From a virus: 22,124 nucleotides of DNA. The notes beneath the pieces are model-generated. The model saw only the letters and a list, made by a program, of their open reading frames with translations. It did no database searches and had not been told where the DNA came from. Positions 52-19,223 of the stretch are shown here, piece by piece. The DNA lies in the IMG/VR virus record IMGVR_UViG_3300025669_000214, positions 1 through 22,124 of that record. One strand, written 5' to 3'. Numbering within the stretch: the stretch's first letter is position 1; each line of letters begins with the position of its first letter. Position numbers and translations under genes: made by a program.

Positions 52-633
52 TCAGATAACTTGTATCAGTCGGATCAGACTTGATCTTCCAATCGTCGGC
101 GTTAAATACTCGCTCATGAACGTATCGGCATCGTAGCGGACAGTGTATGTCCGGTATACCTTCAACCCTGATGTCGCCGACTCATTTGAAAGCGAGTCAG
201 TTCCTATAAGCGTCAGCGTGCCAGCCACGACTCCGCCGGTGTCGATAGTGTACTCGCCGTCATCGCTGGTTGATCCATCAACAGTAACCGTTTGTCCGGC
301 AACAAACCCCATGTCTGAAAACCCGCTACCTGAATCCGTGATTGTGTCAGGATTTGAATTAACCAGTGCGATCGTGTCTGTTATTTGTTCCGCATAATTC
401 GGGAATGTGAATGTTGTATAACTACCCTTCATGGAATCAAAATGATTTCGGATTGCAAGTAATGTTGCCGCCGCTTGCGCATTGAAATACAGATTGAATC
501 CTGACTTTGATGCCGACCATTTCTGCCGACGCTGTTCCTTGCCTGACTCGAATCGAGAAGTGGTTGTATTCCATGTGCGGTCAAATGTATAAGGCGTTAT
601 AATCTGCGGTTGCCAAGATGTAGTCCATGCCAT
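52..633 (-). CDS. Distal/minor tail protein (lambda gpM / DUF2460-like) with inserted beta module
   Basis: 193 aa. The first 80 residues (RRQKWS near 35-40, a run of aromatic and hydrophobic strands, then TFTFPNY) and the end (YTVRYDADTF near 163-172, then hydrophobic strands) resemble the small tail-tip proteins that cap the tube below the tape measure. Between them, residues about 85-160 form a separate module with NPDTITDSGSGF, GSTSDDGEYTI and LTLIGTDSL. The same module is found in the second tail-tube protein of this window, so it is a mobile domain inserted just before the conserved C-terminal strands. The start codon overlaps the tape-measure stop (TAATG), giving translational coupling. 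The family name is from remembered sequence style and gene order; the insertion is seen directly. Confidence 0.72.
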   Translation of the reverse strand: MAWTTSWQPQIITPYTFDRTWNTTTSRFESGKEQRRQKWSASKSGFNLYFNAQAAATLLAIRNHFDSMKGSYTTFTFPNYAEQITDTIALVNSNPDTITDSGSGFSDMGFVAGQTVTVDGSTSDDGEYTIDTGGVVAGTLTLIGTDSLSNESATSGLKVYRTYTVRYDADTFMSEYLTPTIGRSSLIRLIQVI

Positions 634-2477: not shown

Positions 2478-3237
2478 GATGTCCCCGGTGACTTTATTCC
2501 GTATTGTTGTTCAAGTGTTGCGTGATCCGGCTCACCCTTGTTCTTTTTGTCTGTCATGCGCCCGATATAATCGCGGAACATGAATACCAGTTTCTCGAAC
2601 TCAGCCCGCCGATTATCAATATCATAGAGATCAAACACCATTCCGATTGCATTATAGTCAACGTCGAGCGGGTCGCCCATCCCCCCTGTCCGCAACTGGT
2701 TTAAGAGAAGTGGGAACAGGGCATACGCCGTCTCGTTTCCATCTATCGGTGCCGGGATGCAATCGTAGCATGGTGGCTCGTCGCCTGTCTTATCCCATTT
2801 CTTCCGGCATGTGGGACAATCATCGCCTCTGGTGCGATTAATAACCCAATCGACGAGCAGCGTCAGTTTTTTACTTCGAGCCCTGTCCGCGCTTCCAGAG
2901 CGGTATTCAGTGAGTCAAGGGCGTTCGCCACGACAGCCGCGAATTCAGGGCATTGTGTCATCAGCAGTTTTTTGTTTTCGGAAGTACACTTGATCTGCTT
3001 GTCGGCCTGATCAGTTACACCTGACCATGATACAATACCGGCGTTCCACGTGAGATCGGATTCAAGTTCATCGTTGACGTGCTCAACCATTACGCCCTGA
3101 CGACTTGGTTTCTTCTTGCGCGTTTGGCTTCGTATCTCCTGAATCTGCGCCTGTGTCAATACACGCACCTCTATTTTGCCGCCGCCAGGAAGATCGAATT
3201 CGCTCGTGGGATTCAAATTCTCGGTGTTCAGTTTCAT
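2474..3237 (-). CDS. Tail assembly chaperone, -1 frameshift fusion (G-T type)
   Basis: Ribosomes that slip -1 at AAAAAAC (2866-2872) avoid the TGA at 2863-2865 and continue to the stop at 2474, giving a 254-aa fusion (124 aa in frame 0 plus 130 aa in the -1 frame). The -1 frame is open from the slip to the tape-measure overlap and begins with LTLLVDWV. It carries CPTC and CYDC at about residues 141-144 and 157-160, a probable zinc ribbon present only in the fusion. In lambda-like phages the short G and long GT forms act as chaperones on the tape measure and tail tube. Position between tube and tape measure, the slip site and the cysteine pairs agree. The second part has no good independent start before about 2695, which supports slippage rather than a separate gene. 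Confidence 0.88.
2863..3237 (-). CDS. Tail assembly chaperone, short unshifted form (G type)
   Basis: 124 aa in frame 0, the main product if no slippage occurs. It starts MKLNTENLNP, contains LPGGGKIEVRVLTQAQIQEI near 17-36, is largely helical by composition and ends ARTGLEVKN followed by TGA. The last two sense codons, AAA and AAC, are themselves the slippery sequence. A purine-rich AAGGGA about seven bases upstream supports the ATG at 3237. It follows the second tail-tube gene after 22 bases. Function is by position and frameshift architecture rather than by a catalytic motif. Confidence 0.85.
   Translation of the reverse strand: MKLNTENLNPTSEFDLPGGGKIEVRVLTQAQIQEIRSQTRKKKPSRQGVMVEHVNDELESDLTWNAGIVSWSGVTDQADKQIKCTSENKKLLMTQCPEFAAVVANALDSLNTALEARTGLEVKN
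2866..2872 (-). other. Programmed -1 ribosomal slippery heptamer A AAA AAC
   Basis: In the zero frame the codons read GTA AAA AAC TGA, so the heptamer A-AAA-AAC is in the register required for simultaneous -1 slippage and sits directly before the stop. AGGG about eight bases upstream could act as an internal Shine-Dalgarno stimulator. A small GACG/CGTC stem lies immediately downstream. The -1 frame continues for 130 codons to the tape-measure start. Confidence 0.88.
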
Positions 3238-3259: not shown

Positions 3260-4381
3260 TTATTTCCACGCTGTAGTTCTGCTTGTCAGCGTGAGTGAGC
3301 CGGTTCCGACGATATTAAGTACCTGCGTCACAAGACCATCGACAGGCGTGACAAGCCCCGTGCTTTCAACGATCCCGAGCCCTTCGTAATAATATGCGGT
3401 TGTGCCGGTCGGATCGGCAGCGTTCTGGATAAAGAAGCGGAACATGTATGTCAGCCCGGCAAAGTTATACGGGGTGTCGTCTTGGTAGAATCCGTTGCAT
3501 GTTGCTGACCAATCTGTCAGCGCCGCAACCCTTGTTTTGTACCCGGAATTCCCATCGGTGAAGTCAGTTGATTCGTAGACATCAACACCATCGTCAATTG
3601 ACCAGTCGCGGAATCCAAGTAACTGCGTGCCGCGCGGTGCTGTCTTGATTATAACATCATCGCCAGCAGCTTCGGCTGTTAATGAATCGCCGCCAACAAG
3701 TGTCAGCACACCAGGAGCAGCCCCGCCTGCGGCAATAGTAAATTCGTCATTGTTACTTGTCGATCCTGACACGGATATTTTCATGCCCGTGGTAAACCCA
3801 CCGGATTCCCCGGCTGGTGCTTTTACCGTTACCAATACATTATCAACATAGAAGTCACCAGATGTTTCTGTGTCCGAATCGATCTGGATCGTAGCAAGTG
3901 CGCCGCCCGCCGTCTCGGTGTATTCAAACGTGATGTTGTTCCACGCATCCTGTGTGAGTCCGGTCTGCGCGGTATCGTATACTTTCGTTGTACCGTTATC
4001 TCCACGGTATACAACAACGCGGCATCGTGTACCGTCGTCAGGATATACCCACAGATCAGCGGCATACATCACTCCGGTTACAGTGGTCTCAATCAGCACA
4101 TCGCTCTTGATTCCCTGGTTCACTCCGTTTGGCGTAAACTTGCGGGAGTATGTACCTGCATACTCCTGTGTGCCTGATCGTGCGTTCGCTGCCGGTGCCG
4201 ATGGCGAATCGTTCCAGTTGGCATCAAGCTCCATGTCCCAGTTCGTTACGAGTGTATTGACAAAGCCGTTACCTGAATCCAGAATTGTATCTGGATTGGT
4301 GTCGGCAAATGAGATCGTATCCGCTGCGATGTATGCAGGCGCATAATACAGCGCTCCGACTTTACCATGTATTTCAGCCAT
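3260..4381 (-). CDS. Second major tail (tube) protein with nested domain insertion
   Basis: 373 aa. The first residues (MAEIHGKVGALYYAP) and the segment at about 255-365 (DWSIDDGVDVYESTDF, YKTRVAALTDWSAT, TPVDGLVTQVLNIVGTGSLT) match the adjacent 121-aa tube protein along its whole length. Between them about 230 residues are inserted. An outer module at about 20-42 and 189-247 (NPDTILDSGNGF, then GSTSNNDEFTI and LTLVGGDSL) is the one also seen in the distal tail protein. It is interrupted by residues about 43-188, which look like a CBM4/9-type jelly roll (NWDMELDANW, then WNNITFEYTE, then FYVDNVLVTV). A GGAGG about ten bases upstream supports the ATG at 4381. It could be a minor tube variant displaying a carbohydrate-binding domain; the inserted fold is inference. 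Confidence 0.82.
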   Translation of the reverse strand: MAEIHGKVGALYYAPAYIAADTISFADTNPDTILDSGNGFVNTLVTNWDMELDANWNDSPSAPAANARSGTQEYAGTYSRKFTPNGVNQGIKSDVLIETTVTGVMYAADLWVYPDDGTRCRVVVYRGDNGTTKVYDTAQTGLTQDAWNNITFEYTETAGGALATIQIDSDTETSGDFYVDNVLVTVKAPAGESGGFTTGMKISVSGSTSNNDEFTIAAGGAAPGVLTLVGGDSLTAEAAGDDVIIKTAPRGTQLLGFRDWSIDDGVDVYESTDFTDGNSGYKTRVAALTDWSATCNGFYQDDTPYNFAGLTYMFRFFIQNAADPTGTTAYYYEGLGIVESTGLVTPVDGLVTQVLNIVGTGSLTLTSRTTAWK

Positions 4382-4399: not shown

Positions 4400-4765
4400 T
4401 TAGGCAGGACGGGTGAGTGCGCCGTTGCCGACAAAGTTGTACGTTACGGTCACAAGATCATCAACAGGGGTATTCACCGCTTGGCTGACAAGCATCGCTG
4501 TCCCTGTGTATGTCGAGCCGCTTACAATTGTAAGCGTCAGTGCCGCGCTATCTCCGGGATCAGCAGTGTTTGTCGAGTCGTACCGCGCCTCGATGGTAGC
4601 CGACCAATCATTGAGACCTGCCATCCGTGTCTTGTAGTTATTGGCACCATCCGCAAAGTCAGTTTTTTCGTGAATATCAGGTGCGTCGTCGATGTTCCAC
4701 GAATACACATTTGCAACGATGCCAGCGAAGGTGATTGATCCGCCTTTGCCCGTGATTTCAGCCAT
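4400..4765 (-). CDS. Major tail (tube) protein, short paralogue
   Basis: 121 aa, read from the ATG at 4765 (MAEITGKGGSITFAG) with AGGAG eight bases upstream; the open frame extends further upstream but lacks a better start. It is beta-rich and carries WNIDDAPDIHEKTDF, YKTRMAGLNDWSAT and TPVDDLVTVTYNFVGNGALT. The last is a typical C-terminal strand pair of siphovirus tube proteins that polymerise into stacked hexamers. The start lies inside the last codons of the upstream glycosyltransferase, so its ribosome-binding site is within that gene. The next gene encodes a larger paralogue. This short form is the likelier bulk tube subunit. Confidence 0.82.
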   Translation of the reverse strand: MAEITGKGGSITFAGIVANVYSWNIDDAPDIHEKTDFADGANNYKTRMAGLNDWSATIEARYDSTNTADPGDSAALTLTIVSGSTYTGTAMLVSQAVNTPVDDLVTVTYNFVGNGALTRPA

Positions 4766-5384
4766 CTTGAATCTCCTTTTTGATAGTGGCCCACATGCCG
4801 CTGAACTTCTCGTCAACCTGCACCGTGGTCAGGTGTTTTGGTATTACTGATGCGTCAAGTAAAATTTCACCGCCTGCCTCGCGGACTTTATCACAGAACA
4901 AATAATCCTCTCCGAGAACCGGTCTACACAGTTCATCATCCTCCGTCTCAAACCACGGATGAAACATGTGTTCTTTCACCCAATCAACGTCGATCAGCAT
5001 ACATGCTGTACTGACACGATCAACCGGGAGTATATCGCCAACCTTGCATTTCATATTAGTTGACTGGAAACACGGGTCGAATGGTGGATACCGTCTGAAC
5101 ATCAATCCGGCAACTACAGCCGCGCCTGACGCATCCATCGTAGCCGTTAATCGATTCACTGTATCGACCGGGTAGACCATATCAACATCCATCATCATTA
5201 GTTGATTCGCACCGGAATGGATTGCGTTATACATCAACCCGTTTCGCAGTGCTGTTATTGGCCCGGCTTCGGATGTGAGCAACATGTGTTCGCCCTTATC
5301 AACCAAGATATACGATTTGAAGAAATCGGCATGTACCATCGGGAATCCCAACGGCAATCCGATTGCGAGTTTCTTGTCTCTCAT
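4758..5384 (-). CDS. GT-A-fold glycosyltransferase (GT2-like) inside the tail operon
   Basis: 208 aa from the ATG at 5384 (MRDKKLAIGLPLGF), chosen because AGGGG lies eight bases upstream and the start falls 13 bases after the preceding stop. MMMDVDMVYP at about 63-72 gives the DxD metal/nucleotide-sugar site. LGEDYLFCDKVREAGGEI at about 157-174 resembles the ED-containing acceptor/catalytic region of GT2 enzymes, and PKH follows at 182-184. It has no membrane segment, so it is probably cytosolic. Its place between tail terminator and tube genes, and its overlap with the tube start, suggest a virion protein as acceptor. Glycosylation of tail or capsid proteins by phage-coded enzymes is established for some mycobacteriophages; it is inferred here. 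Confidence 0.8.
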   Translation of the reverse strand: MRDKKLAIGLPLGFPMVHADFFKSYILVDKGEHMLLTSEAGPITALRNGLMYNAIHSGANQLMMMDVDMVYPVDTVNRLTATMDASGAAVVAGLMFRRYPPFDPCFQSTNMKCKVGDILPVDRVSTACMLIDVDWVKEHMFHPWFETEDDELCRPVLGEDYLFCDKVREAGGEILLDASVIPKHLTTVQVDEKFSGMWATIKKEIQDG

Positions 5385-5397
5385 GGCGCGGCCCCTT

Positions 5398-5808
5398 TCA
5401 ATTCTTTTGAATCCTGGCGGTAAGTTCAATCGTATATTGCCATGTATCGTCAGCCCTGAACCGGAACCAATTTGACATCCTATACATGACCTGCGCGTAT
5501 CCCGACACCGTTATTGCCACCCATCCCGATCCGGCTGATGGCTCCATCAGTGCGGTAAACTTGTCGAATAATTCATCTATTTCGGTGTTCGCTCGCGTGT
5601 TACTGAAAATATTAAACGTGAACACCATTTCGTATACATTGGTCGAGAACGTGTGAGACGGGATTGCCGTTGTGTTGGTTATAACCGCATAAGGATATGT
5701 CGCACCTTCCGGGCCTTCAGTATCATACACGCGGCCACCGATTGCGGTGTTGAATGTATTCGAAGTGGTCGCCTTTGTTATAAAACCAACAAGGAATGCC
5801 TGTATCAT
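5398..5808 (-). CDS. Tail terminator / tail completion protein (gp17-like, DUF3168-type)
   Basis: 136 aa. GGRVYDTEGPEGATYPYAVI at about 24-43 is characteristic of the small proteins that cap the tail tube and join it to the head. The remainder alternates beta strands (VYEMVFTFNIFS near 58-69 and YTIELTARIQ at the end) as expected for the fold. The ATG overlaps the stop of the gp10-like gene (TAATG at 5808), in the conserved order connector, closure, gp10-like, terminator. Assignment is from this motif plus gene order. Confidence 0.82.
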   Translation of the reverse strand: MIQAFLVGFITKATTSNTFNTAIGGRVYDTEGPEGATYPYAVITNTTAIPSHTFSTNVYEMVFTFNIFSNTRANTEIDELFDKFTALMEPSAGSGWVAITVSGYAQVMYRMSNWFRFRADDTWQYTIELTARIQKN

Positions 5809-6281: not shown

Positions 6282-6619
6282 TACGATTCCGCCTGTTCGC
6301 GCTTTTCCGATTCAAGGTACAGGATCGTATACCGCTGGCGTCCCATCGGATCTTCTGACAGCTTGACCGTGAAATATCGCGTACCGTATCTCAGCCGGTC
6401 TTTCTCGGTAATCGTCAGTCCTGCCGGTTTATCAAGCATGAATTGATAGTCGGCTGTTATTGCCATCCGATTAAACAACGGGCCTCGATCACCACGTACT
6501 GTCTGAAGCGTGCCGCGTAACGTGCGCACAGGTCGCCACACGAACGACGGTGAATTGGTCGATGTGAGTGTCTCGGTATACCGTTCAAGCGTCACGGTTA
6601 CTTTCGGCCCAAATGCCAT
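6281..6619 (-). CDS. Head closure / head-tail joining protein
   Basis: 112 aa, beta-rich, with LTSTNSPSFVWRPVRTLRGTLQ in the first 40 residues and LTITEKDRLRYGTRYFTVKL near 68-87. The GTRYFTV strand is typical of phage head-tail joining proteins of the SPP1 gp16 / HK97 gp9 type, which close the portal channel after packaging. Position after the connector and before the gp10-like gene is the canonical one. Both ends overlap neighbours as TAATG, so expression is translationally coupled. Confidence 0.82.
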   Translation of the reverse strand: MAFGPKVTVTLERYTETLTSTNSPSFVWRPVRTLRGTLQTVRGDRGPLFNRMAITADYQFMLDKPAGLTITEKDRLRYGTRYFTVKLSEDPMGRQRYTILYLESEKREQAES

Positions 6620-7746
6620 TAAACCATTCTCCGCTTGTATGCGTCAAATATCATTTTGGTTTCGGGTGGCAGTTGCGCGTATGCCGCCGATATATCACCT
6701 GCCCTCATTTGTGTCAACCCGAACGTCTCATCTTGACGTTTGCGGTACATCGACTGGATCAGTGCCATAACTGCAAACCGTATATCGTCTGGCATGGTGG
6801 AAGACGAATATCCGGCAGTGTACGAGCAGATGATATTCCTGATGCCGCAATTAAACAAGCGATATGATGTCAGCTTGCCGGTCGTGGGATCAAGCTGAAA
6901 TTCATTTTCTGCTTCATCGGCCATGTCAAGATCAACGGTTGCGCTGTCAATACAACTCTGGCCCCATGCTTCGAGCAGTTCAGTTGATTTGAATGTTCCG
7001 AATGTAGCAACGACTTGTGCCGTCCATCCAGCCCCAAGCGCGTTCACAGCCGCTACGGCGGTCGCTATCGTCTTGTATGTGGCAAACAGCACTGTCGCAT
7101 CAAGTGCGCCGTCTTTCTCCAGCACAAGCCCTGTGGACGTGACTGACACCGATGCTGTTGATTCGTTGGATGTATTGGTGATCCTGATAGCGGATCGAAC
7201 ACCGATAGCAAGTTTCGTAAACGCTGTCACCGGGTAATCATCGAGCCATATCACTTTACGTCCTGTCCCGTCGTACCGTTTTAATGAATACGCTGTCGAA
7301 TCAAGTGTACGCCGCAAGAGTGAATTCTGAACCCATGTTTCCACGCCATCCTTGATATAGCCGACTACTGTTGTGGGATCACCTGCCGCAAGATCGCTTG
7401 TCAGTGTCAGTGCCGCTGCCTTGTCAGCAGTGAATCCGATTGTTAATGCCGCGTCGGATCCTGACAGCGTGAATGTAAGCGTTGTACCAGCTCCGGCAGT
7501 CATTGAAAACAGGCGTGTCGATGAACTCCATGATACGGTTGATGTGACTGTGAACGCGGTATCTATCGCGGTTTCTATTGCGGCTGCAAGTCCGTCTCCG
7601 CTGTATGTCCCATCGGCAATATCGACGTTTGTTGCGGATCCAGCATCTTTCGTCAGCACCAGCACGTCGTTCCCGGCAGCGATTTCAAAGTATCCCCGGT
7701 CGACCCCGATAAATTCCAGCACTTCATCTGTGGTTACAATTGCCAT
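6619..7746 (-). CDS. Head-tail connector (gp6/gp15-like) with two inserted beta modules
   Basis: 375 aa, much longer than the 100-200 aa usual for these portal-binding adaptors. The family core is seen at residues 1-20 (TTDEVLEFIGVDRG), about 130-186 (VETWVQNSLLRRTL and a WLDDYPVT strand) and about 270-375 (IRNIICSYTAGY, MPDDIRFAVMALIQSMY, YKRRMV). Inserted at about 20-120 is a beta module with DIADGTYSGDGLAAAIETAI and an IGF near its end. At about 186-262 is another (ITNTSNESTASVSVT, then ATYKTIATAVAAVNALGAGW). Both look like modules that recur in phage structural proteins, here presumably facing outward from the neck. The stop overlaps the closure gene start. Core assignment is good; module roles are unknown. 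Confidence 0.82.
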   Translation of the reverse strand: MAIVTTDEVLEFIGVDRGYFEIAAGNDVLVLTKDAGSATNVDIADGTYSGDGLAAAIETAIDTAFTVTSTVSWSSSTRLFSMTAGAGTTLTFTLSGSDAALTIGFTADKAAALTLTSDLAAGDPTTVVGYIKDGVETWVQNSLLRRTLDSTAYSLKRYDGTGRKVIWLDDYPVTAFTKLAIGVRSAIRITNTSNESTASVSVTSTGLVLEKDGALDATVLFATYKTIATAVAAVNALGAGWTAQVVATFGTFKSTELLEAWGQSCIDSATVDLDMADEAENEFQLDPTTGKLTSYRLFNCGIRNIICSYTAGYSSSTMPDDIRFAVMALIQSMYRKRQDETFGLTQMRAGDISAAYAQLPPETKMIFDAYKRRMV

Positions 7747-8880: not shown

Positions 8881-9879
8881 TTATTCTCCCCATACTTGAA
8901 GAAATTGTAGGCTCGTGGTAGCGGCAACGAATGTGACATTATCGGCGGCGATAGCCACCTGCCAAACAGAACTTGGAACTTGGGTTGAATGCGTTGCCCG
9001 TAATACATCATCAATATAAAATTTCACGTCAGAAGCGGTGATCACGATTTCCATTAGGAACCAAACATTAGTAGTAATCCAAGACGACAAATCAGTTTGT
9101 TGTTCCGGGTCGGTTGTTCCGGTTACTGCCACAGGAATTTGATCCCAGACGCCTATAGAAGCAACTTCATACGCACCAGATACTTCTAACAGATCATCAG
9201 CCACAGTAGGCGTCTTGTCATTCTCTATAAAACCGATGGCGCATTGGGAGCCATCTGTATCCGTCCATATAAACCGGGCATATGAACTGAGATGTATTTC
9301 TGTAACACCCCCCTTTAATCCTATTACTTTTTTATTTTGGGTGTATGTCAATGTTTTATCACCAGTATTTGCTCCATTATTTAGAAACAAATAGCCCGGT
9401 TCCCCTGCCGTATTATTTACAACGGTCGTCGTCCCCCCGCCAGCCTCAAGAACTGCCCAAAGATCGGTATCCGGAGCAGCGGCATCGGCTACAAGATTGA
9501 AGAAGTCCTGGAAACCCGGGAAAGCCCCAATACCAAGAAGGGATTTTTCTTTATCAGAAATCAGGGACAGACTTCCAAGTAATGTTATAATACCTTTGGC
9601 GTACGCGATGAGAGATTTTGTGGTGTCTACTGCGGTAACAGCGGCGTCGTTCTTATTTCCGATTACATCTTTCATCTGAGCGTTTGTTGCCACGTTAGCA
9701 GTTGGTACATCATGCAACCCATCAATAACGGTTATGGCTTCCGATACAGCAGACAACGTATCCAATACCGTGTCCGTCGTGGTCGGCATCTTCCACACAT
9801 CTTGAGCTGCCGCATTCGGAGCGAGTACCAGAGCCGCAAGCAGTAGTGCCGTGCTTATTGTAAGAAATCGTTTCATCAT
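8881..9879 (-). CDS. Exported protein with C-terminal lectin-like beta domain
   Basis: 332 aa from the ATG at 9879; the second ATG at 9876 is better spaced from AGGAG. A Sec signal peptide is evident: KR, a hydrophobic core (LLLAALVLA) and an AAA-Q cleavage site near residue 25. Residues 30-130 are mixed and partly helical (GFQDFFNLVADAA). Residues about 160-330 are beta-rich (YLFLNN, ARFIWTDTDGSQCAIGF, WFLMEIVITASDVKFYIDD), like a concanavalin-A-type jelly roll. Signal peptides are unusual among structural genes, so the product may act in the periplasm or at the host surface. The jelly-roll call is moderate. Confidence 0.68.
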   Translation of the reverse strand: MMKRFLTISTALLLAALVLAPNAAAQDVWKMPTTTDTVLDTLSAVSEAITVIDGLHDVPTANVATNAQMKDVIGNKNDAAVTAVDTTKSLIAYAKGIITLLGSLSLISDKEKSLLGIGAFPGFQDFFNLVADAAAPDTDLWAVLEAGGGTTTVVNNTAGEPGYLFLNNGANTGDKTLTYTQNKKVIGLKGGVTEIHLSSYARFIWTDTDGSQCAIGFIENDKTPTVADDLLEVSGAYEVASIGVWDQIPVAVTGTTDPEQQTDLSSWITTNVWFLMEIVITASDVKFYIDDVLRATHSTQVPSSVWQVAIAADNVTFVAATTSLQFLQVWGE

Positions 9880-9886
9880 TCGCTCC

Positions 9887-10654
9887 TTAGTACCGGTCGC
9901 GGTTGAGTGTCGCGTCTATAGTTGTATTCTGTCCGTTGTCGCCGTATGCCTCGAACTTGAGATATGCGGCAGGTGCGCCAACATCTCGCGTGAACGTCCA
10001 TCCAAATTTGCCCGCCTTCGTGATGTTCAGCGAGTCAGGCGACACTTGGTATCCAACGGTTGCGCCCTTCTGCGTCATCGTTCGTTCGCCGTACCACAGA
10101 TACCCCATTACGTTGACTGAATCGCCCGCAGAGGTCACGTTCAACACTACACTGTTTGTCTTGTACGGAATGAATACCATTGAACTGTCAGCACCGGATG
10201 CGCCGTCAACAACGAGTGAGTCAAGAATAGTTGCTGGTCGCCATGATAATGCCTGGATAAGCGGCTGCTTGTCAACCATGTTCAGCGTCGTTGGATTGAC
10301 TTCAATCTCAGGCCCGTATATGGTCACCTCTTGAGATGCGGAAACTTTGGTATCACCCTCGTCTCGTGTTACAAGGAAGAAATCATAAGCAACGCCCGGC
10401 GATAATCCGGTAATCACATACGACGTTGTTGCCGAGTCACCCAGTGCAGCGAAAGTTGTGTCGGCATAGCAAACATAAACCGAGTCAACTTCGGTTGGTG
10501 CGGTCGTGATGAATATGTGTGCGCTCTGATTCGTGAGTGCGGTTAAATCAAATGCGCCCGCTGTTTGCGCTCCACTTGCGACATTACTGGTTACGAAGAT
10601 CGCCACGAATATTAGTACCGATGTGACGACCGTCTTGATGATTCTTTGTTTCAT
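9887..10654 (-). CDS. Exported protein with fibronectin-III-like domain
   Basis: 255 aa. The N-terminus has basic KQRIIK, a hydrophobic core (VVTSVLIFVAIFVT) and a likely signal peptidase I site SGA-Q at about 29-30. Residues about 40-113 look like a fibronectin type III domain, with the hallmark YVITGLSPGVAYDFFLVTRD at 79-98. Residues 115-255 are further beta-rich sequence (LDSLVVDGASGADSSMVFIPY, MGYLWYGERTM) without a recognised family. AGGAG six bases before the ATG supports the start. It is followed within seven bases by another signal-peptide gene, so the two exported products are probably made together. It may be secreted for host-surface contact or superinfection exclusion; function is unknown. 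Confidence 0.7.
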   Translation of the reverse strand: MKQRIIKTVVTSVLIFVAIFVTSNVASGAQTAGAFDLTALTNQSAHIFITTAPTEVDSVYVCYADTTFAALGDSATTSYVITGLSPGVAYDFFLVTRDEGDTKVSASQEVTIYGPEIEVNPTTLNMVDKQPLIQALSWRPATILDSLVVDGASGADSSMVFIPYKTNSVVLNVTSAGDSVNVMGYLWYGERTMTQKGATVGYQVSPDSLNITKAGKFGWTFTRDVGAPAAYLKFEAYGDNGQNTTIDATLNRDRY

Positions 10655-10676: not shown

Positions 10677-11723
10677 TTATGCTACCGATTCGTATACTGG
10701 TTGCATCTGTTCGCTATACCGTGCGAGTGAGAATGCTGATGCCCGCGTTTTAACGTTTTCCGCAACACTGTCCGGGTCTTCTGTTATTGCCTGTATTGTC
10801 CTCACTATGGTATCGGCTACATCTGCCGGATCGTCTGGTATTGCCGTAAACGGTACATGGTCACATCCACGTGCCGCGATGACCGGCGTACCACAACTCA
10901 TCGCCTCGCCTATCGAGCGTGTTACGATCCGTTGTGGTGATAATATTAAATCAGCCGCCCGGTATACATCATTGATCTTGACTGTCCTGCCGACTATTTC
11001 ACCTTTTGCCCCGAGCTTGCGTAGTTCATCAATCAGGTAATTCCAACATCCAAGCGGTGTCTCCATCGCATAGAAATGGAACTTGAGCCCGTCGATTCTC
11101 TTTGCGGCCTCGATTGCCCCGTGTGTAATTTCATATATATCTACATCTTCACGCCAGCTTTCAGCAATCACGATGTTATACTTGCCATTGAATACTCCGA
11201 AATCACGTGCCGGCCCTTCAGGTGCGAACCGGCGTTCATCAATCGGTGGCGCGTCGAGACACACGAGTTTCCCATCCGGTACAATCGGATTCCAGTACGG
11301 GACATGATGATTCCAGAATGTGACCATCTTCCTTACGCGCGGCCATTGTGCTACTGTTGCCGCCAGTGTATATGATTTTCTGCTACCGTTCTGTTCGGGC
11401 CGGAAACACGCCAGCGGTCGACCGTGCAATATCCAGATAACAGGCGCGAAACATTTGACGATCCAATTATCTGATACGCCGGTATGCGCGATTACGATAT
11501 CAGCATCGTACACGACATCCGGGGGGGACGTAGTGAGTATGACATCGCCACGTCTGTCTGTCTGCCCCGTTTTTCCAGGGAAGTGTTTCCCGTCCCGTGT
11601 AACACCGACATCGACAAAATACGTTTCATGCCGAGCCCGTGTGTCCGCTGCAAACATATCTCTTGCTGCTTCGTACAATCCGCAGGCGTTCGGGGCGAAT
11701 GGGGCAAAGTGAACGATCTTCAT
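10677..11723 (-). CDS. GT-B-fold glycosyltransferase (GT4-like)
   Basis: 348 aa. It starts MKIVHFAPFAPNACGLYEAA, a Rossmann strand with the glycine loop of GT-B enzymes. The C-terminal nucleotide-sugar domain shows YNIVIAESWREDVD at about 182-195 and VYRAADLILSPQ at 253-264. SIGEAMSCGTPVIAA at 270-284 is the classic GT4 donor-binding motif with its conserved Glu. Retaining transfer from an activated sugar to an unknown acceptor is expected. The start overlaps the upstream DUF7164-like gene (ATGA at 11720-11723), so methyltransferase, GT-A and GT-B enzymes are translationally coupled and probably act on one glycan. Confidence 0.85.
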   Translation of the reverse strand: MKIVHFAPFAPNACGLYEAARDMFAADTRARHETYFVDVGVTRDGKHFPGKTGQTDRRGDVILTTSPPDVVYDADIVIAHTGVSDNWIVKCFAPVIWILHGRPLACFRPEQNGSRKSYTLAATVAQWPRVRKMVTFWNHHVPYWNPIVPDGKLVCLDAPPIDERRFAPEGPARDFGVFNGKYNIVIAESWREDVDIYEITHGAIEAAKRIDGLKFHFYAMETPLGCWNYLIDELRKLGAKGEIVGRTVKINDVYRAADLILSPQRIVTRSIGEAMSCGTPVIAARGCDHVPFTAIPDDPADVADTIVRTIQAITEDPDSVAENVKTRASAFSLARYSEQMQPVYESVA

Positions 11724-12649
11724 CGCCCTACCTCCGCGATTTCATATTGACTGCCCCGCGTAAGTCCCTCCTGATCGAAACCGCGTACCATCCGATCAGT
11801 TGCGCTTTCATTTCTTTTCCCCGCAATCAGCAGACAGTAATCGCATATTTTGTTCGGGTCAAGGTTGGTCATATCAGCGGTGTCGTACTCACCTCGATGC
11901 CATGAAAGTTTTGAAAAATGGTTGTCTGTGTGCCATGCATGAATATGATAATCAGTATTACATATCGGGTCTTGTGACATACAGAACACATCGAGCCCGC
12001 CCATAGTAAGCGAGTTACCGAAAGTATCATTTGCAGCAAGACATCCAGCGTACATGTTCAGTACATGCAGATACCAGCCGGGCCATGCGCCTTTGCCATC
12101 AGGAAACTCTTCGGCTTTCAACCGTTTGGCGAACTGCATCTGAGTGCTCGCATATGCCAATACATTTGCGGATGGGGCCATGACCGTGCATCCCACATTA
12201 AGGAAATGGAGTTTGATACCCCACTTCTCAGCAATGCGGATCAGATTGTGTGCCACCTTCGGATTCGTTGCATACCCGCTTGTCCCGAATGTAGCGAGCC
12301 GTGGTCGCAGGTTCTTGAAATGTTTTGTCAGGAACACGTCATTATCAGTCTTCAGGATGTAATGGTAGTCTGATATGAATTGCGCGGCTGGTGTTGTCAT
12401 GTACCATGTCGCATTGATGTGTTTATAGTAACCCCACTCAACATCACGTTCTGACAAAGGCACCAACGGCACATAGATTATGTTCTCATGTTTCGGCAGC
12501 TTCCCCATATCAACAACCGGGTTGTGAAATACAATCAGATCGGACATATCGCAGGATTCACTCTGCACCCATGATCGATATAACCATCCGAATTCGATGA
12601 TTGTTTTCTCGTCATTATCGACGTAAACTGTTATCCCTATCGTGTTCAT
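11720..12649 (-). CDS. Phage glycosyltransferase-like protein (DUF7164-type, GT-A)
   Basis: 309 aa. YHYILKTDNDVFLTKHF at about 95-111 contains a DND/DxD site for a metal-bound nucleotide sugar. DLIVFHNPVVDMG near 37-49 and several aromatic-rich segments (GWLYRSWVQS, GAWPGWYLHVLNMYAG, DYHIHAWHTDNHFSKL) resemble a glycosyltransferase-like family that I recall from actinobacteriophages as DUF7164; that name is from memory. It overlaps both neighbours by ATGA, placing it in a coupled unit between a methyltransferase and a GT4 enzyme. The acceptor is unknown; a virion protein is the simplest inference. Confidence 0.75.
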   Translation of the reverse strand: MNTIGITVYVDNDEKTIIEFGWLYRSWVQSESCDMSDLIVFHNPVVDMGKLPKHENIIYVPLVPLSERDVEWGYYKHINATWYMTTPAAQFISDYHYILKTDNDVFLTKHFKNLRPRLATFGTSGYATNPKVAHNLIRIAEKWGIKLHFLNVGCTVMAPSANVLAYASTQMQFAKRLKAEEFPDGKGAWPGWYLHVLNMYAGCLAANDTFGNSLTMGGLDVFCMSQDPICNTDYHIHAWHTDNHFSKLSWHRGEYDTADMTNLDPNKICDYCLLIAGKRNESATDRMVRGFDQEGLTRGSQYEIAEVGR

Positions 12650-18189: not shown

Positions 18190-18885
18190 TCATTTATCCT
18201 CGGTTAAAAATGCGTCACAGAATCCATATTTATTTCTGTCAATGATTGTATCATCTATTCCGAGAAATCCGGCAACGCGCCGAATATATATCTTTCTGTG
18301 TTTATCATCCACCTTTGCGGACAAAGGAATGCTGGTACAAAAATCGATCATTTCCGCGTTCAGGTATGGCAGATATATTTCAACACCTTTTGATTCGCTG
18401 TTTAATGCCTCAAGATGATCGGGTGTTAGCCGACCAAGATAATAGGCGTATTTTTCTTCCGGTTCGGTTTGATGGTCATAGTATCCACACATGAACTCAT
18501 CAATGCCGTCACAACATATTATCTTCGTCACGTCTACCGGCAGCATGTCGAAGAATGTCTCATATACATTCCCGTTGGCATTTATTCCGGTTATCATTGT
18601 TTGATGCTTTGTTTGGTATATTAAGCTCCCGATTTTAGCAAACAGTGCATCGGGGTGCTCGTTCCTTGATGCTATTGTGAATGTGTGCGCCTGGTAAAAA
18701 TGGCTGAGAATATCAAGCATTACTGTTGAGTCGATTCCCCCGCTATATGCCAAAGTATCGACCTCTATGGAATCCAATACGTCTTCGAGCAATTCAACAA
18801 ACGCACCAACAGGCGCGTCACCGACACTGGAAACGTCTGCGTATTTATAATAATCCTGCCGCCAATTTTCCGGGTATACTATCAT
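18190..18885 (-). CDS. Asparagine-synthase-like PP-loop ATPase without glutaminase domain
   Basis: 231 aa from the ATG at 18885, which overlaps the preceding stop (ATGA) with AGGA six bases upstream; an open extension to 18927 is less likely. YSGGIDSTVMLDIL at about 47-60 is the PP-loop for ATP pyrophosphate binding. CDGIDEFMCGYYDH at 125-138 matches the G.DE.F.GY motif of the asparagine synthase C-terminal domain. YLPYLNAEMIDFC, then RKIYIRRVAGFLGI and RNKYGF, follow that family to the end. The N-terminal glutamine amidotransferase domain is absent, so it would need free ammonia or another partner if it amidates, or it may form amide or lactam bonds as relatives do. It sits between minor-head and protease genes, which is unusual. 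Substrate unknown. Confidence 0.85.
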   Translation of the reverse strand: MIVYPENWRQDYYKYADVSSVGDAPVGAFVELLEDVLDSIEVDTLAYSGGIDSTVMLDILSHFYQAHTFTIASRNEHPDALFAKIGSLIYQTKHQTMITGINANGNVYETFFDMLPVDVTKIICCDGIDEFMCGYYDHQTEPEEKYAYYLGRLTPDHLEALNSESKGVEIYLPYLNAEMIDFCTSIPLSAKVDDKHRKIYIRRVAGFLGIDDTIIDRNKYGFCDAFLTEDK

Positions 18886-19223
18886 ACTGATTCCTGTAGT
18901 TGTCTGTCTGGACATGGGGGCGGACATCCGGCAGCTTCCGCCTCTTCGTCACTCCAAAAGACTTCTTGGTCATCTTCGAGTCCGGTTATTGCATGATATA
19001 TTACTCCATCTGTGCCCTTGATATGCCCCGTCGTAAACTTATTGCCGAGATGATCGAGAACAAAACAATGGTGTAATTCTTCATCGCCGTCTTCGTCTAC
19101 ATGCACATGGTGCAAGAGATACAGAAAACTCTCTAATGGTTCTCCGTCGTCTTTCATCATTACGAGTTTCCGCTCTGCCATCGCACGCGCTGATGAAATT
19201 AGGTTCTGTTTGCTCATATCCAT
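18882..19223 (-). CDS. His/acid-rich hypothetical protein coupled to the PP-loop enzyme
   Basis: 113 aa from the ATG at 19223, chosen because GGAG is six bases upstream; a TTG at 19235 would overlap that site. An N-terminal helix (QNLISSARAMAERKLVMM) is followed by a beta-type region with many His and acidic residues (YLLHHVHVDEDGDEELHHCFVLDHLG, split by turns). Then come TTGHIKGTDGVIYHAIT and an acidic end with GCPPPCPDRQ. The stop overlaps the PP-loop gene (ATGA), so the two are translated together. It may be a metal-binding protein, partner or substrate of the enzyme. No known family is recognised. A structured RNA with a U-tract lies directly upstream. Confidence 0.68.
   Translation of the reverse strand: MDMSKQNLISSARAMAERKLVMMKDDGEPLESFLYLLHHVHVDEDGDEELHHCFVLDHLGNKFTTGHIKGTDGVIYHAITGLEDDQEVFWSDEEAEAAGCPPPCPDRQLQESV

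Follow-up and report, generated by a model that had tools for sequence, protein, structure and literature searches.

The 22,124-nucleotide stretch analysed here, referred to as the window (positions 1 to 22,124 of IMG/VR virus record IMGVR_UViG_3300025669_000214), carries two adjacent tail-tube genes, the plain S and the "decorated" D. In the reading that we favour, and to which we give about two chances in three, an uncultured long-tailed phage would have two tail-tube paralogs, of which D is the decorated form: a module of ~75 aa would occupy the loop between D tube strands 1 and 2, and a CBM_4_9-like domain would later have entered this module at the surface loop that joins its strands 2 and 3. 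S and D would stack in one tube via a common long-loop interface, as the coupling of their sequences suggests, while the module would hold the CBM away from the tube, on the outward beta1-beta2 loop, where it would probably make weak, multivalent contacts with host-surface sugars and aid adsorption. The evidence also leans slightly towards a broader view, namely that a family of uncultured phages builds its tail tube from two ancient paralogs whose compatibility is maintained by coevolving ring-stacking loops, D being a display subunit that takes exchangeable, and even nested, domains in its beta1-beta2 loop.

Two Adjacent Tail-Tube Genes

The D gene (positions 3260–4381; this gene, S, the tube and module parts below, and the chaperone, tape-measure, distal-tail, and terminator genes lie on the complementary strand) encodes a protein of 373 aa and has a GGAGG ribosome-binding site before its ATG start. 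Upstream of it lies the S gene (4400–4765), encoding 121 aa. Both proteins match PHROG 1407, "major tail protein" (E 4e-9 for S and E 9e-8 for D, where the match spans residues 236-368), and S also belongs with the short tube relatives whose profile (A3), when compared with the PDB, retrieves the major tail protein of phage R4C (8gtb, E 1.8e-11). Foldseek searches with an AF2 model of D return as top matches only tube proteins, i.e., those of monocin, Sf11, GTA, R4C, and lambda, with probabilities of 0.96-1.0 and E 0.002-0.12 (the best E being only 2e-3); these matches identify the tube beta-sandwich, the long beta2-beta3 hairpin itself being poorly predicted. Judged by their tube-core profiles, D and S can be assigned to the siphophage tail-tube proteins of the R4C/PHROG 1407 type. 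The whole D protein has no match in a search of isolated phages.

The original prediction that D resembles its 121-aa neighbour at both ends is borne out: when the N-terminal strand of the tube core (residues 1-19; 4325–4381) is joined to the remainder of the core (residues 248-373, with the long ring-stacking loop; 3263–3640), a search of the window recovers S with 38% identity and E 1e-19, residues 248-373 alone being 41.7% identical to S.

A Domain Within a Domain Within a Tube Subunit

Between these two ends, D contains the first part of the outer beta module (residues 20-42; 4256–4324), the CBM_4_9-like insert (residues 43-188; 3818–4255), and the second part of the module (residues 189-247; 3641–3817). 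Six D relatives (in L047, L018, L036, L014, L080, and L090), each with an adjoining short tube gene, have the module uncut at the same beta1-beta2 site and without residues 43-188; the one in L047 is 46% identical to D of the window. Alignment with these relatives shows that the insertion boundaries had been predicted correctly to within a few residues: the insert sits between "SGNGFV" and "GFTTGM", in loop 19-32, which links strands 2 and 3 in the AF2 model of the module. Because the six relatives have an uncut module, residues 43-188 appear to have been put into a module already inserted in the tube subunit, and the CBM insertion would thus be later than that of the module. Among the more than 40 module copies examined, only those of the window's lineage are split. 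The proposed architecture, a domain in a domain in a tube subunit, is in this way supported by uncut relatives for each layer, and present-day relatives display every layer of the nesting both with the next one and in its absence.

The Outer Beta Module Is Widespread in Virion Proteins

That the two halves form a single module, as had been proposed, is confirmed by the same phage's distal-tail protein (52–633), in which the module of ~75 aa is uncut. This protein matches DUF2460/Rcc01695 in its N-terminal part (PF09343, E 5e-10, at profile positions 17-78 of 205 only; TIGR02217, E 7e-5), and the module (160–381) follows directly. Joined together, residues 20-42 and 189-247 of D match this copy (at 378..175) with 49% identity and E 4e-17; taken separately, the first part aligns with distal-tail residues 86-105 (65% identity) and the second with residues 109-153 (51% identity). 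AF2 models the uncut copy as six strands with a pLDDT of 92.3, and in the predicted monomer of the whole D protein both parts of the module score ~80-87.

A search of IMG/VR for the module yielded 40 loci, and it is found uncut in more than 40 proteins of uncultured phages, which include tubes, distal-tail proteins, adaptors, tail-fibre-like proteins, and others. Scanning genome contigs gave one protein carrying the module, L084, which is not a tube. With Foldseek, the module has no significant match in the PDB (best E 0.39, to assorted small beta barrels) and none below E 0.001 in BFVD, where the best matches are phage tail-fibre, baseplate, and uncharacterised proteins. The module is a widespread virion domain that no Pfam, PHROG, or PDB entry clearly matches. 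Its presence in the distal-tail protein as well as in D points to a general adapter domain of the virion, and our preferred explanation includes the proposal that this six-stranded module is also mobile. Homology to cellulosomal scaffoldins was considered and set aside, as the profile match is weak (E 7e-4) and consists of a short alignment in which common beta-strand residues abound. Of note, the D protein of L014 (1353–2279) contains two copies of the module (residues 20-97 and 221-294), making the C-terminal end a second insertion site.

The CBM_4_9-like Insert and Its Possible Ligand

Taken alone, residues 43-188 match Pfam CBM_4_9 (PF02018) with E 2.4e-5 and 25.1 bits, which is slightly below the curated cut-off of 25.9 bits, and the whole D protein scores 21.4 bits; no further Pfam family is listed for the insert up to E 10. 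The original CBM4/9 label is supported by sequence at a level that falls slightly short of the family's own threshold. AF2 predicts strands in this region but with a pLDDT below 50, so that the fold is unreliable, as expected from an alignment without homologs: beyond a second copy of the gene in contig L003, no homologs of the insert were found in the viral-contig search, and a sequence search of the PDB gave nothing credible. Among phage proteins, the insert is best matched by part of the gpJ-like tail protein of Arthrobacter phage Tank (27% identity, E 6e-3). The idea that a foreign base composition marks the insert was rejected, its GC content being 0.516 versus 0.496 for the window.

L003 is an independent contig, 99% identical to the window (19 mismatches and 2 gaps in 4.6 kb), that has the same D gene with two amino-acid differences. 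Nine of the ~20 differences fall in the CBM region (3875–4289), seven of them within 37 bases (4025–4061), and so do the only two amino-acid changes of the D gene. This distribution would be expected of a host-facing domain, and also of a single recombination tract.

In lactococcal phages of the 936 group, CBM-bearing extensions of the tail tube bind host cells (PMC6669499). By analogy, the insert of D may be read as a weak, multivalent, sugar-binding decoration. A purely structural jelly roll, acting as a stiffener, a spacer, or a docking site for another protein and having no sugar ligand, is less probable but deserves serious attention: the galactose-binding-like fold serves many purposes, the Pfam score falls slightly short of the cut-off, and the best phage match is the Tank gpJ-like stretch. 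The host-cell binding of the 936 extensions nonetheless speaks for a sugar ligand, as does the clustering of the L003 differences and of both amino-acid changes in the CBM region, to the extent that it does not reflect one recombination tract.

S and D Share a Matched Ring-Stacking Loop

The S gene is directly followed by D in ten viruses (the window, L047, L018, L036, L014, L080, L088, L089, L090, and L092), and this conserved two-tube arrangement, together with its matched stacking loops, is new here. When the D sequences of the ten pairs are compared, their beta1-beta2 loop is a variable insertion site: most contain the module, L088 a divergent copy of it, the window the module with the CBM, and L092 (535-1137) a different insert of ~75 aa, while L089 has no insert. 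Glycine-rich inserts are also present in the apparently single tube proteins of L094 and L095. The variability of this loop in D marks a tolerant, probably outward site on the tube subunit, and suggests that the tail of the window phage can take exchangeable surface parts. In the lambda tube, this loop touches the Ig domain on the outside of the next subunit (PMC8718954); an insert at that loop should therefore face outward, and it is reasonable, by this analogy, to expect that of D to be displayed on the tail exterior.

Most D members have conserved features of their own, an additional RFF...YYYEG stretch and an end of the form TxAW, and a tree over S residues 57-121 groups all D proteins in a single clade (support 0.971). 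Over S residues 23-56, which make up the long loop, the picture is reversed, S and D of the same virus being sisters in 8 of the 10 cases. Mean identity in this loop reaches 0.600 within a virus, versus 0.346 between S and D of different viruses, 0.355 among S, and 0.337 among D, and none of 100,000 permutations attained the observed same-virus value, in a test that takes the ten viruses as exchangeable and an interval that was picked after viewing the alignment. A sliding window places the peak of S/D similarity at residues 41-55, within a broad rise over residues 21-60, in the same place as the chosen interval. The rings of R4C contact each other through the long loop that follows beta2 (PMC10276861), and the matching of this loop within each virus therefore argues that S and D have a stacking interface in common and build the same tube; that they stack on each other is what we infer from these alignments. 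Such coupling offers a test, requiring sequences alone, of which tube proteins share a tube.

Where D would stand in that tube, and in how many copies, bears on a second alternative, in which D forms one specialised ring beside the distal-tail hexamer or the terminator and the CBM is located at the tail tip or the neck instead of being distributed along the tail. A specialised ring would suit a protein with a separate gene and with conserved features peculiar to it (the RFF...YYYEG stretch and the TxAW end), and also the place of the D gene, with the main tube gene on one side and those for the chaperone, the tape measure, and the distal tail on the other. The matched loops, however, speak only for S-D stacking, which neither restricts D to one ring nor excludes this, and we regard the single ring as a serious but less probable option.

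The loop similarity could also have arisen by gene conversion between S and D, with no functional need to stack. Where loop residues are identical between partners, 52% of the codons are identical too, versus 40% expected, and older gene conversion may thus explain part of the coupling; many synonymous sites differ, however, so that the copying was not recent. As the effect is, in addition, centred on the very hairpin through which R4C rings touch one another (PMC10276861) and is repeated in ten lineages, gene conversion as the whole explanation is unlikely. A chimeric assembly or a gene in decay, as the unusual architecture of D and the lack of the protein in isolated phages might suggest, is extremely improbable, since the gene is also present in the independent contig L003, where it differs by two amino acids and keeps both its open frame and its ribosome-binding site intact, which rules out a single-assembly chimera.

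Comparison With Known Decorated Tails

Decorated tail tubes are already known, and in the examples found the addition is either an extension at the C terminus or one internal insert. The tail of SPP1 combines a plain and a decorated subunit, gp17.1 and gp17.1*, in a 3:1 ratio (PMC8718954), and the matched stacking loops of the ten viruses point to a similar mixed tube of S and D. In SPP1, however, both derive from one gene by a frameshift that adds a C-terminal FN3 domain, whereas S and D come from two ancient paralogous genes that are started separately, each from a ribosome-binding site of its own, and the insert of D is internal, in the beta1-beta2 loop. The 936 phages have sugar-binding modules both on the tube (MTP-TpeX) and in an "evolved Dit", which bind host cells (PMC6669499). 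Similarly, tube and distal-tail protein of the window phage have a module in common, and the latter protein has the distal-tail core with an internal extra module that characterises an evolved Dit, yet no CBM. TpeX differs from D in that a frameshift gives the tube protein a C-terminal extension containing a BppA-like CBM, whereas D has a CBM_4_9-like domain nested in another inserted module.

Inserts within the tube subunit, as in D, are also found in YSD1 (domain 2; PMC8718954) and JBD30 (the decoration domain; PMC11445458), but at other sites, after alpha1 and at residues 88-175, respectively; they are single-layered and occur in phages with one tube gene. Compared with the tubes of roseophage R4C and the GTA, the core of the window phage is nearest to the R4C major tail protein, and the R4C distal-tail protein likewise belongs to the DUF2460/Rcc01695 family and has an outward insertion domain; the R4C tube subunit, in contrast to D, is 130 aa long without insertion. 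Finally, an isolated phage, Dinoroseobacter phage R26L, has the same module in its Phage_tube_2 tube protein (ORF residues ~109-185), although the tube family and the site differ from those of D and the module is not split.

Neighbouring Genes

The tail genes are ordered as follows: tail terminator (5398–5808; phrog_176, E 1e-8), a small sugar-/nucleotide-transferase-like gene, S, D, tail assembly chaperone (2863–3237; phrog_313, E 7e-7), probable tape measure (633–2477; identified from phrog_8125, E 5e-4, and its position), and distal tail. Sugar-/nucleotide-transferase-like, glycosyltransferase, and asparagine-synthase-like genes (4758-5429, 10677-12649, and 18190-18927) occur among the structural genes, one of them directly upstream of the S-D pair. 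Two genes of the structural region (8881-9879 and 9887-10654) have signal-peptide-like starts, which is unusual for virion genes, and the second has a weak FN3 match. Lastly, a comparison with L050 reveals a divergent tract of ~300 bases (6930-7225) with near-identical flanks inside the head-tail adaptor gene (6619-7746), which, from its sequence, looks like a swapped domain.
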